DNA of 64,000 bases from Paracoccaceae bacterium (GTDB lineage Bacteria; Pseudomonadota; Alphaproteobacteria; Rhodobacterales; Rhodobacteraceae), in assembly GCA_028284705.1 (NCBI GenBank), contig JANQRE010000038.1, positions 62,001 through 126,000 on the forward strand, given 5' to 3'. The position numbers and the translations under genes are program-made. This document shows, one piece after another, positions 57,981-60,955 of this stretch. The notes beneath the pieces were generated by a model. It was not told the DNA's origin, ran no database searches, and worked only from the letters and a program-made list of their open reading frames with translations. Every line of letters starts with the position of its first letter. Positions within the stretch are counted from its first letter, which is position 1.

Positions 57981-58433
57981 GTGAGCGAAAATACCGATCT
58001 GATCAAGCTCTATTCGGGGCAGATCCTCGCACTCGCGGCGGATATTCCGCTCACCGAGCGGCTGGATGCACCCCAAGGCACGGCCAAGAAGCGCTCGCCG
58101 CTTTGCGGCTCGACCGTCACTGTCGATCTCGATCTCGAAGGGGGGCGCGTCTCCCGGTTTGGGCAGGATGTGAAGGCTTGTGCGCTCGGCCAGGCGGCGG
58201 CCTCCGTGGTGGGCTCTTCGATCATCGGTTGCTCTCGCGAAGAGGTCGAAACCGCCCGCGATCAGTTGAAAGCGATGCTAAAATCAAACGGCCCTGCCCC
58301 GCTGGCACCTTTTGAGAACCTCAAAGTGCTGGAACCGGCGAAGGATTTCAAAAACCGCCACGCCTCGATCCTCTTAAGCCTCGAAGCCACGCTCGACGCG
58401 TTTGACGCTGCCAACGCGCAGGCCTGCGCTTAG
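57981..58433 (+). CDS. IscU/NifU-like Fe-S scaffold protein lacking one cysteine
   Basis: 150-residue protein of the NifU N-terminal/SufU family. Cysteines in SPLCGSTVTV and KACALGQAAAS correspond to the first two cluster ligands, but the third conserved cysteine near the C-terminus is missing (KNRHASILLSLEA). A further cysteine occurs in IIGCSREE. It may therefore be a carrier or sulfur-transfer protein, not a full scaffold. GTG start. Located 24 kb from the suf operon and divergent from hisI. Confidence 0.85.
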   Translation: MSENTDLIKLYSGQILALAADIPLTERLDAPQGTAKKRSPLCGSTVTVDLDLEGGRVSRFGQDVKACALGQAAASVVGSSIIGCSREEVETARDQLKAMLKSNGPAPLAPFENLKVLEPAKDFKNRHASILLSLEATLDAFDAANAQACA

Positions 58434-58442
58434 ACCCCAGAT

Positions 58443-58478
58443 AAAAAAGGACCGTCGCCAAGGGGATAGCGACGGTCC
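58443..58478 (-). terminator. Strong terminator for the minus-strand transcript after the 40-residue ORF
   Basis: GGACCGTCGC and GCGACGGTCC form a perfect 10-bp stem with a 10-base loop, followed on the minus strand by TTTTTT (58443-58448). It could also end the convergent scaffold gene, though without a T-run in that direction. Confidence 0.88.
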
Positions 58479-58616
58479 AGGTTGCATGTCGTGATTGGGA
58501 CGGCGCGTACCGGCGGCTGAGGCAAGCCGGAAGCTGGGGACATTTACGCGCCGGTCATGTCTGGGCAACGGGAAAAACCCGACATGGGGAACGATCAGAC
58601 AGCAGGCAGTTAACTC
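58479..58616 (-). other. Structured non-coding region, candidate 3'UTR-derived small RNA
   Basis: 138 bases with no ORF but two more strong structures. GGCGCGT/ACGCGCC (58502-58508 with 58546-58552) encloses CCGGC/GCCGG (58510-58514 with 58526-58530). CATGTC-GGG/CCC-GACATG (58556-58565 with 58578-58586, one bulge) follows. With the terminator hairpin this makes a three-domain RNA of about 145 nt on the minus strand, either the 3' tail of the small-ORF message or an independent sRNA. Confidence 0.45.
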
Positions 58617-58739
58617 TTAGAAAAAACTGGGGATATTCAAGGCCACGATCATCATAACGCCAATTGCAATAATGCCGGCAGCGTCCTGCATCAAGGCAGT
58701 GGGCGAGCGCATCAGAATGGCTTTGAAATCTTCGATCAT
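58617..58739 (-). CDS. 40-residue single-span membrane peptide behind a LexA box
   Basis: A short frame encoding 40 residues: an amphipathic, charged start (MIEDFKAILMRSP), then TALMQDAAGIIAIGVMMIV and ALNIPSFF, i.e. one transmembrane helix of about 20 residues with a tiny C-terminus. GAGGAG lies 9 bases before the ATG, a very good ribosome site. It follows recG on the same strand after 125 bases, has a perfect SOS box upstream and a strong terminator downstream. No family assigned. SidA of Caulobacter, a 29-residue SOS-induced membrane inhibitor of division, is the closest known logic. Confidence 0.65.
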   Translation of the reverse strand: MIEDFKAILMRSPTALMQDAAGIIAIGVMMIVALNIPSFF

Positions 58740-58810
58740 GGCTGTTTCTCCTCAATGTCTTCTGTTCTCTTTGTTGCCTCTTTGTTCTCATTTTCGAAAC
58801 GGCTTGTAAA

Positions 58811-58825
58811 GAACTTTTTAGGAAC
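58811..58825 (-). promoter_or_regulatory. LexA (SOS) box GTTC-N7-GTTC
   Basis: The minus strand reads GTTCCTAAAAAGTTC, an exact match to the alphaproteobacterial LexA direct-repeat site GTTC-N7-GTTC. A third GTTC lies 6 bases further upstream (58832-58835). The box is 71 bases from the start of the 40-residue ORF, the only gene downstream of it on that strand before the terminator. Confidence 0.65.
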
Positions 58826-58864
58826 ATTTGCGAACTTTTCGGGAAACACGTGCTTTGTTCTGCA

Positions 58865-60955
58865 CTAACCGATTGAAATCAAACGGATAGCGCGGTCCTG
58901 CTCCATGAGCCATAGAAGCGCGCGGGCCGCCTCTCCCCGTGGGCCTTCCAGAGTCGGATCATCGCTTAGAAGCTTACGGGCATCCGTCTGAGCGATCTCC
59001 AGCAACGCGGTCTGCCGTTCAAGATCGGCAATCCGGAATCGCGGCAAGCCGCTTTGCGCCGTGCCGATCAGATCCCCCGCCCCGCGTATCGCAAGATCCT
59101 CTTCGGAGATGCGGAACCCGTCCTCGGTCTCGCGCATGATGTCGAGTCGCCGACGTGCCGTCTCGGAAAGCGGAGCCTGGTAGAGCATCAAACAGGTCGA
59201 TTGCGCCTCCCCGCGCCCGACCCGACCGCGCAATTGATGCAGTTGCGCCATGCCGAAGGTCTCCGCCCGTTCGATCACCATGATCGTCGCGTTTGGCACA
59301 TTGACGCCCACCTCAATCACCGTCGTGGCGACCAGCACTTTCGTCTCCCCCGCCACGAATTTCGCCATTGCCGCGTCTTTATCGGCCACCGGCATCTGGC
59401 CATGTACGAGGCCCACCACACCCTCGCCCAACGCCGCACGCAGGGCCTTAAACCGCTCCTCTGCAGCAATCTTGTCGCTAACTTCGCTTTCTTCCACCAA
59501 CGGGCAGACCCAATAGGCCTGTCGGTCTTCGGCAATCGCCCCGCGCAGTTTCGCGACCACCTCATCCAACCGCGCGGTTGGCACCACCGCGGTCGTGATC
59601 GGTTTGCGTCCGGGCGGTTTTTCGTCGAGCACCGAGACATCCATGTCGCCATATTGCGCCAAGGCGAGCGAGCGCGGGATCGGAGTGGCGGTCATCACCA
59701 GCACGTCCACGACCTGCCCTTTTCCCGACAGTTCCATACGCTGATTGACGCCGAACCTGTGCTGCTCGTCGATCACCGAGATGCGCAGATCGTGGAAATC
59801 GACATCCCTTTGGAACACCGCATGAGTGCCGACTAGCACTTGCAGATCACCGGATTTCAAGGCCGCCAGTTTCTCCGCCCGATCTGCCGCCTTGTCGCGG
59901 CCCGTCAGGATATCGAGCCGCACACCCGCATCCCGCGCCAGAGGTTCCAGGCTTTCGAGGTGTTGCCGCGCGAGGATTTCCGTCGGGGCCATCAATACGC
60001 CCTGCCCACCCGCTTCGACCGCGATCAGAAGCGCCATGAAGGCCACAAGCGTCTTGCCCGCGCCCACATCCCCCTGCAGCAAGCGGTTCATGCGGGTGGC
60101 CGCGCCCATATTCGCCGCAATCTCAGCGATCGCCCGGGTTTGCGCGCCGGTTGGTGCGTAGGGAAGTGCCGCGAGAATTTTTTGCTGCAACGCGCCCGTG
60201 CCCGTCGTCTGCCGCCCCGGTTTCGCCCGCGTCCGGGCGCGAGCCAGCGACAGGGTCAGTTGATGAGCGAATAGCTCGTCATAAGCTAACCGCTCCCGCG
60301 CGCGGGATGTCGGCGATAGATCAGCCATGCTTTGCGGTGTATGCGCGGCCTCCACCGCCGCTTTCCAGTCCGGCCAATCGGCTTGCGATTTCTGCGACGG
60401 GTCGATCCATTCCGCCAGGTCCGGCGCAAGTTCCAGAACCCCACGCGCCGCTTTCTGCATGACCCGCTGTGTCACCCCATGGGTCAGCGGATAGACCGGT
60501 TCAAAGCTCGGGATTTCACCCGCTTTGGCCAGGGGAACCATGTGATCGGGATGTGCGATCTGGGCCATGTGGTCGAACATCTCGGCCTTACCCGAGATCA
60601 CTCGCCGCTGACCGGTCGGCAACGTCTTCTGCAGATAATCGGTGCGCGCATGGAAGAACACGAGGCGAAACTCCGTCTCCGCATCGTGGACATGTACATG
60701 ATACGGTCGCCCGCGCGATTTCGGCGGAACGTGCAGCCCCACCTCCACTTCAACCGTCAGAACCTTGGGCAGCAATTGTCCTCTAATCGTCGCGACCGGC
60801 GTGCGGTCGATGCCCGATTGCGGCAAGGTGAACAGCAGATCGCGCGGCTTCTCGATGGCCATGCTTGCCAGATTTTGGGCCGTCTTCTCGCCCACACCCG
60901 GCAATTTGGTGAGATCGCCGAATAGCGGGAAAAGATGCTCGGGCCGACCCGCCAT
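58865..60955 (-). CDS. recG: ATP-dependent DNA helicase RecG
   Basis: 696-residue helicase that regresses stalled forks and processes recombination intermediates. N-terminal wedge/OB domain (about residues 60-200), helicase core with Walker A GDVGAGKT, motif II VIDEQHRFG (DEQH), motif III MTATPIPRSL and motif VI HQLRGRVGRG. Length is normal for the family. It is 6 bases downstream of ligA, so the two DNA-maintenance genes are cotranscribed. Confidence 0.97.
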   Translation of the reverse strand: MAGRPEHLFPLFGDLTKLPGVGEKTAQNLASMAIEKPRDLLFTLPQSGIDRTPVATIRGQLLPKVLTVEVEVGLHVPPKSRGRPYHVHVHDAETEFRLVFFHARTDYLQKTLPTGQRRVISGKAEMFDHMAQIAHPDHMVPLAKAGEIPSFEPVYPLTHGVTQRVMQKAARGVLELAPDLAEWIDPSQKSQADWPDWKAAVEAAHTPQSMADLSPTSRARERLAYDELFAHQLTLSLARARTRAKPGRQTTGTGALQQKILAALPYAPTGAQTRAIAEIAANMGAATRMNRLLQGDVGAGKTLVAFMALLIAVEAGGQGVLMAPTEILARQHLESLEPLARDAGVRLDILTGRDKAADRAEKLAALKSGDLQVLVGTHAVFQRDVDFHDLRISVIDEQHRFGVNQRMELSGKGQVVDVLVMTATPIPRSLALAQYGDMDVSVLDEKPPGRKPITTAVVPTARLDEVVAKLRGAIAEDRQAYWVCPLVEESEVSDKIAAEERFKALRAALGEGVVGLVHGQMPVADKDAAMAKFVAGETKVLVATTVIEVGVNVPNATIMVIERAETFGMAQLHQLRGRVGRGEAQSTCLMLYQAPLSETARRRLDIMRETEDGFRISEEDLAIRGAGDLIGTAQSGLPRFRIADLERQTALLEIAQTDARKLLSDDPTLEGPRGEAARALLWLMEQDRAIRLISIG

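Follow-up and report, generated by a model that had tools for sequence, protein, structure and literature searches.

A putative SOS unit downstream of recG in Rhodobacteraceae pairs a small predicted membrane peptide with a conserved structured 3′ RNA

We analysed a window of 64,000 nucleotides from a Paracoccaceae bacterium (GTDB family Rhodobacteraceae; assembly GCA_028284705.1, contig JANQRE010000038.1, positions 62,001 to 126,000), in which a 40-codon ATG frame lies on the minus strand downstream of recG. Comparative sequence evidence indicates that this frame is a gene under purifying selection, that it is preceded by conserved LexA-type operators, and that it is followed by a conserved structured RNA of about 130 nt. 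We propose that these elements form one SOS (LexA-controlled) transcription unit with two products, a membrane peptide and a 3′ RNA, an explanation to which we assign as a whole a probability of about 0.5. An earlier note, made from the DNA letters of the window, had read the frame as a possible SidA-like checkpoint protein under a LexA box. That interpretation is partly supported, and the analysis further brought to light a second LexA-like site, the presence of the gene across its family and a conserved RNA on its 3′ side. The frame, the GTTC-N7-GTTC box GTTCCTAAAAAGTTC 71 nt upstream of its ATG, a third GTTC and a strong terminator are all present as the note described them, on the minus strand. 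The Shine-Dalgarno sequence GAGGAG is there too, with a spacing of 8 nt rather than the 9 originally given (Table 1).

Results

Distribution and selection of the peptide gene

The single-peptide query returned matches in 19 of the 21 genomes of the window's genus (E ≤ 2e-7); the two genomes without a match are 57% and 79% complete. An ATG frame of 40–41 codons is kept in all 30 best-scoring loci. Within the genus, codon positions 1, 2 and 3 show 10.2, 5.5 and 21.1 differences per pair, and the ratio of non-synonymous to synonymous differences (pN/pS) is 0.33, with pN below pS in 171/171 pairs, which are not independent of each other. The idea of a real but easily missed small gene is thus strongly supported by purifying selection and by profile matches throughout the family. 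Neither loss of the frame nor absence of the LexA box, the outcomes in relatives that would have spoken against the earlier proposal, occurred; frame and box persist across the family.

A profile built from 28 peptides, in which M1, D19, G22, L34 and P37 are invariant, matches 347/394 family genomes, or 346/393 genera. Throughout the genome counts, "family" means the GTDB family, which presumably corresponds to Rhodobacteraceae sensu lato. In a class-wide sample of 385 genomes the profile found eight matches, five in the family and three weak ones outside it (E 0.0018–0.0075), two of which sit within long frames. Twenty family genomes without a profile match were checked and yielded 15 usable recG loci, the other five giving only Mfd-like or partial matches. 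GTTC-N7-GTTC follows recG in 7 of these 15 loci. By eye, 8 of 14 such flanks hold a frame of 37–43 residues with a hydrophobic stretch, and six of these eight diverged small frames carry an Asp-x-x-Gly motif. Because diverged peptide candidates and boxes follow recG where the profile misses, the true coverage of the family is probably higher than 347/394.

For the comparisons below, 91 loci were collected and 6 duplicates removed. The remaining 85 comprise 55 strong loci from 37 genera, 19 of them from the window's genus, and 30 weak loci drawn from the weak end of the profile matches, which are not strictly the 30 weakest. The gene lies in a stable context, with recG upstream on the same strand in 55/55 strong and 29/30 weak loci, and within 250 nt of the peptide ATG in 54/55 and 29/30, respectively. 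A mobile or phage origin was rejected, as single queries of viral contigs, phage records and plasmid records found no homologue of the peptide.

Properties of the predicted peptide

The peptide is 38–42 residues long in 81/85 loci. An 18-residue stretch averages above 1.6 on the Kyte-Doolittle scale in 84/85 peptides, at least two Lys/Arg residues fall within the first 18 positions in 81/85, and the net charge after the hydrophobic stretch is zero in 84/85. The AlphaFold2 model shows helices at residues 2–11 and 13–39 with a mean predicted local distance difference test score of 89.5. Together with the hydropathy profiles it strongly supports, as a prediction, the single transmembrane helix claimed at the outset, and the positive-inside rule would place the N-terminus inside.

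At E ≤ 1 the window peptide matches nothing in Pfam, and no NCBIfam or PHROGs family fits it; known protein families were accordingly rejected as an identity for it. A few of the 28 profile members gave stray weak family matches, the best at E 0.012. SulA (PF03846) was matched in none of 61 genomes, with a positive E. coli control, so SulA appears to be missing from the searched genomes. The idea of a division inhibitor leans on this absence together with analogy.

LexA-type operators upstream of the gene

Taken by itself, the box is not rare. Exact GTTC-N7-GTTC occurs twice in the window against 2.23 expected, and 99 times in the genome against 102 for a reversed control pattern. Since this is chance frequency, the box alone proves nothing and its conservation carries the evidence. 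In 55/55 strong and 25/30 weak loci it is found in the 200 nt that precede the ATG. In contrast to these 80 box-bearing loci, it is found in 0/29 recG 3′ flanks of other families, scanned in either orientation over 350 nt downstream (264 nt in one locus). The sole same-family locus in that control set does carry it. The box is conserved with the gene; it is not rare in itself, nor is it the best LexA-like site in the window.

That place belongs to a second site, GAACAAAGAGGCAAC, which ranks first with a score of 15.7 in a scan of 127,958 window positions. The position weight matrix (PWM) was made from 34 unique lexA, recA, dnaE2 and imuA sites, with the peptide sites excluded. The two sites form a module, with GAAC 38 nt after the start of the box, that is complete in 55/55 strong and 17/30 weak loci, and GAACAAA stands at the fixed second-site spacing in 63/80 box-bearing loci. 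In 28 of the first 30 loci the second half-site of this operator reads CAAC in place of GAAC.

The third GTTC extends the box to a triple, GTTC-N6-GTTC-N7-GTTC, seen in 51/55 strong and 11/30 weak loci. In the 4-Mb genome of the window it has only two copies, one upstream of lexA and one upstream of the peptide gene. Across the 21 congeneric genomes, 47 triples comprise 19 at the peptide gene, 19 at verified lexA genes, 8 elsewhere and one of lexA type, near a contig end in a 57%-complete genome where lexA was not found. The lexA promoters of the genus carry three GAAC half-sites with N7 and N6 spacing in 19/20 loci, which is the peptide triple on the opposite strand, and the inner words are alike in the two (GCAGAT and relatives vs GCAAAT/ACAAAT). 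The recA operators of the genus are also built from these elements. In 17 loci with enough upstream sequence they show, like the peptide gene, two convergent sites, here a one-mismatch GTTC-type site and then GAAC-N7-GAAC, whose starts are closer together (27 bp in the window genome and 21–28 bp in the genus, vs 38 bp at the peptide gene).

After the box, TTTAC follows in 61/80 and TTGAC in 8/80 box-bearing loci. A sigma-70 consensus scan at the locus gave no match; the pentamers are plausible as a −35 element. In Caulobacter, about 97% of SOS promoters are reported to have a single LexA box (PMC12700426). As single-box promoters prevail there, the multi-site promoter of the peptide gene may point to tight silencing. 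An operator of the LexA type near the promoter and its conservation across species, two marks of a LexA regulon member, are both found here. With the conserved box and the triple shared with lexA, LexA control, as originally proposed, is strongly supported, and the gene is very probably LexA-controlled to judge from its sequence. We infer that LexA binds these sites and that DNA damage induces the unit.

A conserved structured RNA between stop codon and terminator

The 3′ sides of the peptide loci share sequence islands, and the stretch from stop codon to terminator proves to be a conserved structured RNA rather than a spacer. A terminator-like end lies within 400 nt downstream in 81/85 loci, with a median length of 174 nt. 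In an alignment of 34 sequences, RNAalifold predicts a closing stem, P1, with arms about 150 columns apart, in addition to the terminator; a further stem, P2, was added from single folds, as it does not appear in the RNAalifold output. P1 and the terminator together hold 46 double-change cells (30 of them in P1) against 14.8 in shuffles, with 0/500 shuffles reaching the observed value. Of the cells, 93.1% pair, vs 33–58% when slid.

An alignment-free swap, in which each 5′ arm of P1 was folded against its own 3′ arm and those of other species (58 loci, with only one Litoreibacter), gave a native mean of −14.0 vs −9.2 kcal/mol for swapped arms, and 0/2000 permutations were as good. For a control window placed 24 nt upstream, z was −0.3; for reversed arms it was −3.1 and −3.6, a measure of how much composition contributes. 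The stem that continues P1 reached z −6.1 (57 loci), as did P2 around the TGTCCC loop (44 loci; this value stands without a shifted control).

A covariance model built from 10 seeds, with one pair set wrongly (column 26 joined to 158 rather than 159), matches 68/75 non-seed peptide loci at E ≤ 1e-3. In 58/75 the score is at least 30 bits, vs at most 21 bits for matches to the terminator only. Up to E 1, matches were found in 81/85 peptide loci, the best all on the peptide strand, and in 80 of them the start falls between the stop codon and a point 150 nt beyond it. The window match spans 58443–58619 (E 5.3e-7). The model also matches 3 of the 15 recG loci that lack a peptide profile match. Among 59 control loci only two matches up to E 1 appeared, the better one at 0.0055. 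A search of Rfam over 58300–58900 gave no match at E ≤ 1.

Two short motifs recur, CTGCCT in 48/56 loci (4.9 expected) and TGTCCC in 44/56 (6.8 expected). The unpaired probability is 0.76 in the TGCCT/TGTCC motifs vs 0.37 elsewhere. The first TGCC motif begins at a median of 9 nt from the stop codon, and no farther than 40 nt from it in 77/81 loci. Taken together, these comparisons make a conserved, functional 3′ RNA very probable. By eye only, leader GGCAAC and the 3′ UGCC motifs could pair with each other.

Discussion

A proposed two-product SOS unit

In the mechanism we propose, LexA would occupy the triple operator abutting the −35-like element as well as the second operator over the presumed start region, and the unit would be silent in healthy cells. 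Upon DNA damage LexA would be cleaved and the unit transcribed. From a short leader without unusual structure and with a good Shine-Dalgarno sequence, a peptide of about 40 residues would be translated and would enter the inner membrane as one helix, its N-terminus inside and its conserved Asp at the helix start. The message would run on into the folded RNA of about 130 nt, with exposed, repeated CUGCCU/CUGUCC motifs, and end at the terminator. The peptide would most likely delay division through contact with the complex that synthesises the septal wall, in the manner of SidA, DidA and YneA. Small SOS membrane inhibitors in other lineages act on FtsW, FtsI or FtsN (PMC4211646, PMC13396833) and SulA is missing here, which is why we favour a role in division; by analogy, we put inhibition of division by the peptide at slightly less than even odds. 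The RNA, in turn, would most likely act in trans, or tune the message, in the same programme. This view draws on the precedents of DinR and EcpR1, and action in trans is held just as tentatively, a little short of an even chance. A bolder version, in which a family-wide, two-armed SOS checkpoint stalls the divisome through the peptide and silences division or cell-cycle mRNAs through a new class of structured multi-loop RNA with CUGCCU/CUGUCC seeds, we consider rather unlikely.

Comparison with known SOS peptides and RNAs

The peptide resembles SidA of Caulobacter crescentus, which likewise comes from an alphaproteobacterium and is described as a transmembrane protein of very small size under LexA control (PMC4211646). 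Whereas SidA has 29 residues according to the earlier note, the present peptide has about 40, is encoded beside recG and is followed by a conserved structured RNA. At the sequence level, the locus shows both the LexA-controlled single-helix membrane peptide that characterises the SidA family and, as in DinR, a structured, terminated RNA 3′ of a LexA-controlled open reading frame (ORF). To judge from this resemblance, the peptide may work as a division inhibitor in the manner of SidA.

YneA, SosA and ChiZ, SOS-induced membrane proteins that act late in septation, are comparable to the role suggested for the peptide (PMC13396833). However, YneA and ChiZ each contain a LysM domain and the helix of SosA is extended, whereas the peptide has almost nothing past its helix. 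FtsW has been suggested as a common target on the basis of AlphaFold 3 models, which for ChiZ, SosA and SidA are, according to their authors, not high-confidence (PMC13396833).

On the RNA side, the closest parallel is the DinR/dinI unit of Klebsiella pneumoniae, a LexA-controlled mRNA for a small protein with a regulatory RNA in its 3′ part. DinR derives from the 3′ part of the dinI mRNA, represses ftsZ and inhibits division (PMC10907235). Its ftsZ-pairing stretch belongs to a Klebsiella-specific region, whereas structure and motifs of the RNA described here are kept across many genera. Nothing suggests that protein or RNA is related to dinI or DinR, although no direct comparison was made. 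EcpR1 is a cell-cycle small RNA of Rhizobiales that acts through its loops (PMC4414408).

Points against the proposal and alternative explanations

Several findings weigh against the proposed unit. The damage response, LexA binding and the phenotype are read from sequence, and homology to a known division inhibitor was not found, in searches that did not extend to the SidA sequence. Divergent loci retain the helix and little of the peptide sequence. Regarding the operators, the full two-site module is absent in 13/30 weak loci, the second half of the second site is imperfect, and the upstream box scores 7.4 (rank 7 of 127,958), so that both operators of the peptide gene fall below the training sites (15.7 and 7.4 vs 20.8–31.6). 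The triple is not over-represented in the 21 congeneric genomes, at 47 copies vs 51 of a reversed control; as about four in five of its copies lie at peptide or lexA promoters, position and not number is the argument. In addition, the spacer of the box is A-rich and AGTTC comes after it, while genes that we take to be dnaE2 and imuA have boxes with T-rich spacers and TGTTC. This difference, along with a composite module AAAGTTCTTTAC...GAGAACAAA that has one copy each in 26/61 genomes, had raised the suspicion of a non-LexA regulator for A-rich GTTC repeats, which was dropped since lexA promoters show the same triple. As for the RNA, the covariance model finds no match at E ≤ 1e-3 in 7/75 non-seed loci, among them L019, where the motifs are still visible by eye. 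Without its terminator the RNA core is only mildly low in folding energy (mean z −1.16, with 17/79 below −2; a value of z −4.22 includes the terminator), and the case for the RNA therefore rests on covariation and motifs.

Among the alternatives, an SOS-induced peptide of the type I toxin kind would depolarise the membrane, lower ATP and bring about dormancy, with the 3′ structure controlling translation or stability. LexA control and a small membrane peptide with a single helix are common to this locus and to DinQ and TisB of E. coli (PMC3567139), and several operators could suit a toxic product. For DinQ and TisB, however, an antisense RNA and structure around the translation start are described (PMC3567139), whereas the four leaders folded here lack the highly structured start of such toxins and fold no more stably than their shuffled versions (z +1.48, +1.41, −0.02 and −0.12). 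The peptide gene is moreover syntenic and near-universal in one family rather than patchy, and a toxin appears unlikely to us. Hardly more probable is the possibility that the peptide is secondary to the RNA, which as a LexA-controlled, 3′-derived small RNA like DinR would repress division or cell-cycle mRNAs and be the chief product. Its covarying structure and repeated unpaired motifs would fit, as would DinR (PMC10907235) and the loop-acting EcpR1 (PMC4414408), but the peptide is itself under purifying selection and occurs at loci that the RNA model does not match.

The RNA could also be a cis element only, serving stability, processing or terminator context, with a peptide that acts on some membrane function apart from division, for instance on wall synthesis, transport or a protease. 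The first TGCC motif lies near the stop codon and the element reaches the terminator, as expected of an element in a 3′ untranslated region, but conservation extends to the unpaired motifs, beyond the needs of a stability hairpin, and we regard this option as improbable, on a par with the toxin. That a spurious ORF happens to lie beside a random GTTC-N7-GTTC, a pattern indeed found at chance frequency, is refuted by the family-wide profile matches, by the pN/pS ratio and by the many genera that keep the frame, the box, the spacing and the synteny.

Significance of the proposed two-product unit

Rhodobacter, Ruegeria and Dinoroseobacter are members of this large marine and photosynthetic group. 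In our literature search we met with no description of an SOS division inhibitor from the Rhodobacteraceae, and the locus offers a concrete candidate for the switch by which the family would stop dividing during DNA damage. The 3′ RNA would contribute a structured, LexA-controlled RNA that ranges over the whole family, and the locus illustrates that a gene which Pfam and NCBIfam lack can still be near-universal within a family. Among the open-licence papers listed in our searches, a scope that leaves out key subscription papers, no title or abstract beginning describes the peptide gene or the RNA, and we consider the novelty of both provisional. The in-silico LexA targets of D. shibae consulted from one study do not include the peptide gene (PMC6473078).

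Layout of the locus and other observations

The features of the locus are collected in Table 1. The recG gene of some Alphaproteobacteria appears to be LexA-regulated (PMC3323433).

Table 1. Coordinates of the peptide unit and its neighbours, in positions of the window
Feature	Position	Strand	Remarks
Peptide ORF, 40 residues	58617..58739	-	ATG frame; N-terminal part basic, a single membrane helix predicted, C-terminal end without charge
Shine-Dalgarno sequence GAGGAG	58748..58753	-	8 nt 5′ of ATG; similar sequence in 81/85 loci
Second LexA-like operator GAACAAAGAGGCAAC	58773..58787	-	One mismatch, in second half-site; top PWM score
TTTACA, −35-like element	58805..58810	-	Abuts operator; putative promoter role
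Upstream box GTTCCTAAAAAGTTC	58811..58825	-	GTTC-N7-GTTC, 71 nt 5′ of ATG
Third GTTC	58832..58835	-	Adjoins upstream box
Triple operator GTTC-N6-GTTC-N7-GTTC	58811..58835	-	Includes upstream box
3′ structured RNA	58449..58616	-	Stop codon through terminator; covariation and covariance model match
P1 closing stem, 5′ arm	58593..58603	-	Conserved CTGCC (58605-58609) just before arm
P1 closing stem, 3′ arm	58484..58495	-	
Intrinsic terminator	58449..58478	-	Strong; 12-bp stem, then TTTTTT
recG	58865..60955	-	Pfam match; conserved upstream neighbour of peptide gene, same strand
NifU-N-like protein	57981..58433	+	Weak Pfam match, E 0.021; converges on peptide unit

An overlapping ORF of 90 residues (58555–58827) gave no match in a Pfam search. 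The NifU-N-like gene is followed by hisI, and each of the two was found in 43/55 strong loci.

Elsewhere in the window genome, three similar frames (L073, L075 and L077, on contigs C38, C43 and C44) begin right at, or slightly ahead of, a GTTCCTGTTATGTTC or GTTCCACTTATGTTC box, and their first ~70 residues are nearly identical. They are possibly a repeated LexA-controlled, or merely duplicated, element. LexA-type boxes also lie directly 5′ of two further genes (L078 on contig C45 and L072 on contig C39), whose products we take to be a PdeM-like phosphoesterase and a PA0069-like radical SAM protein, respectively.
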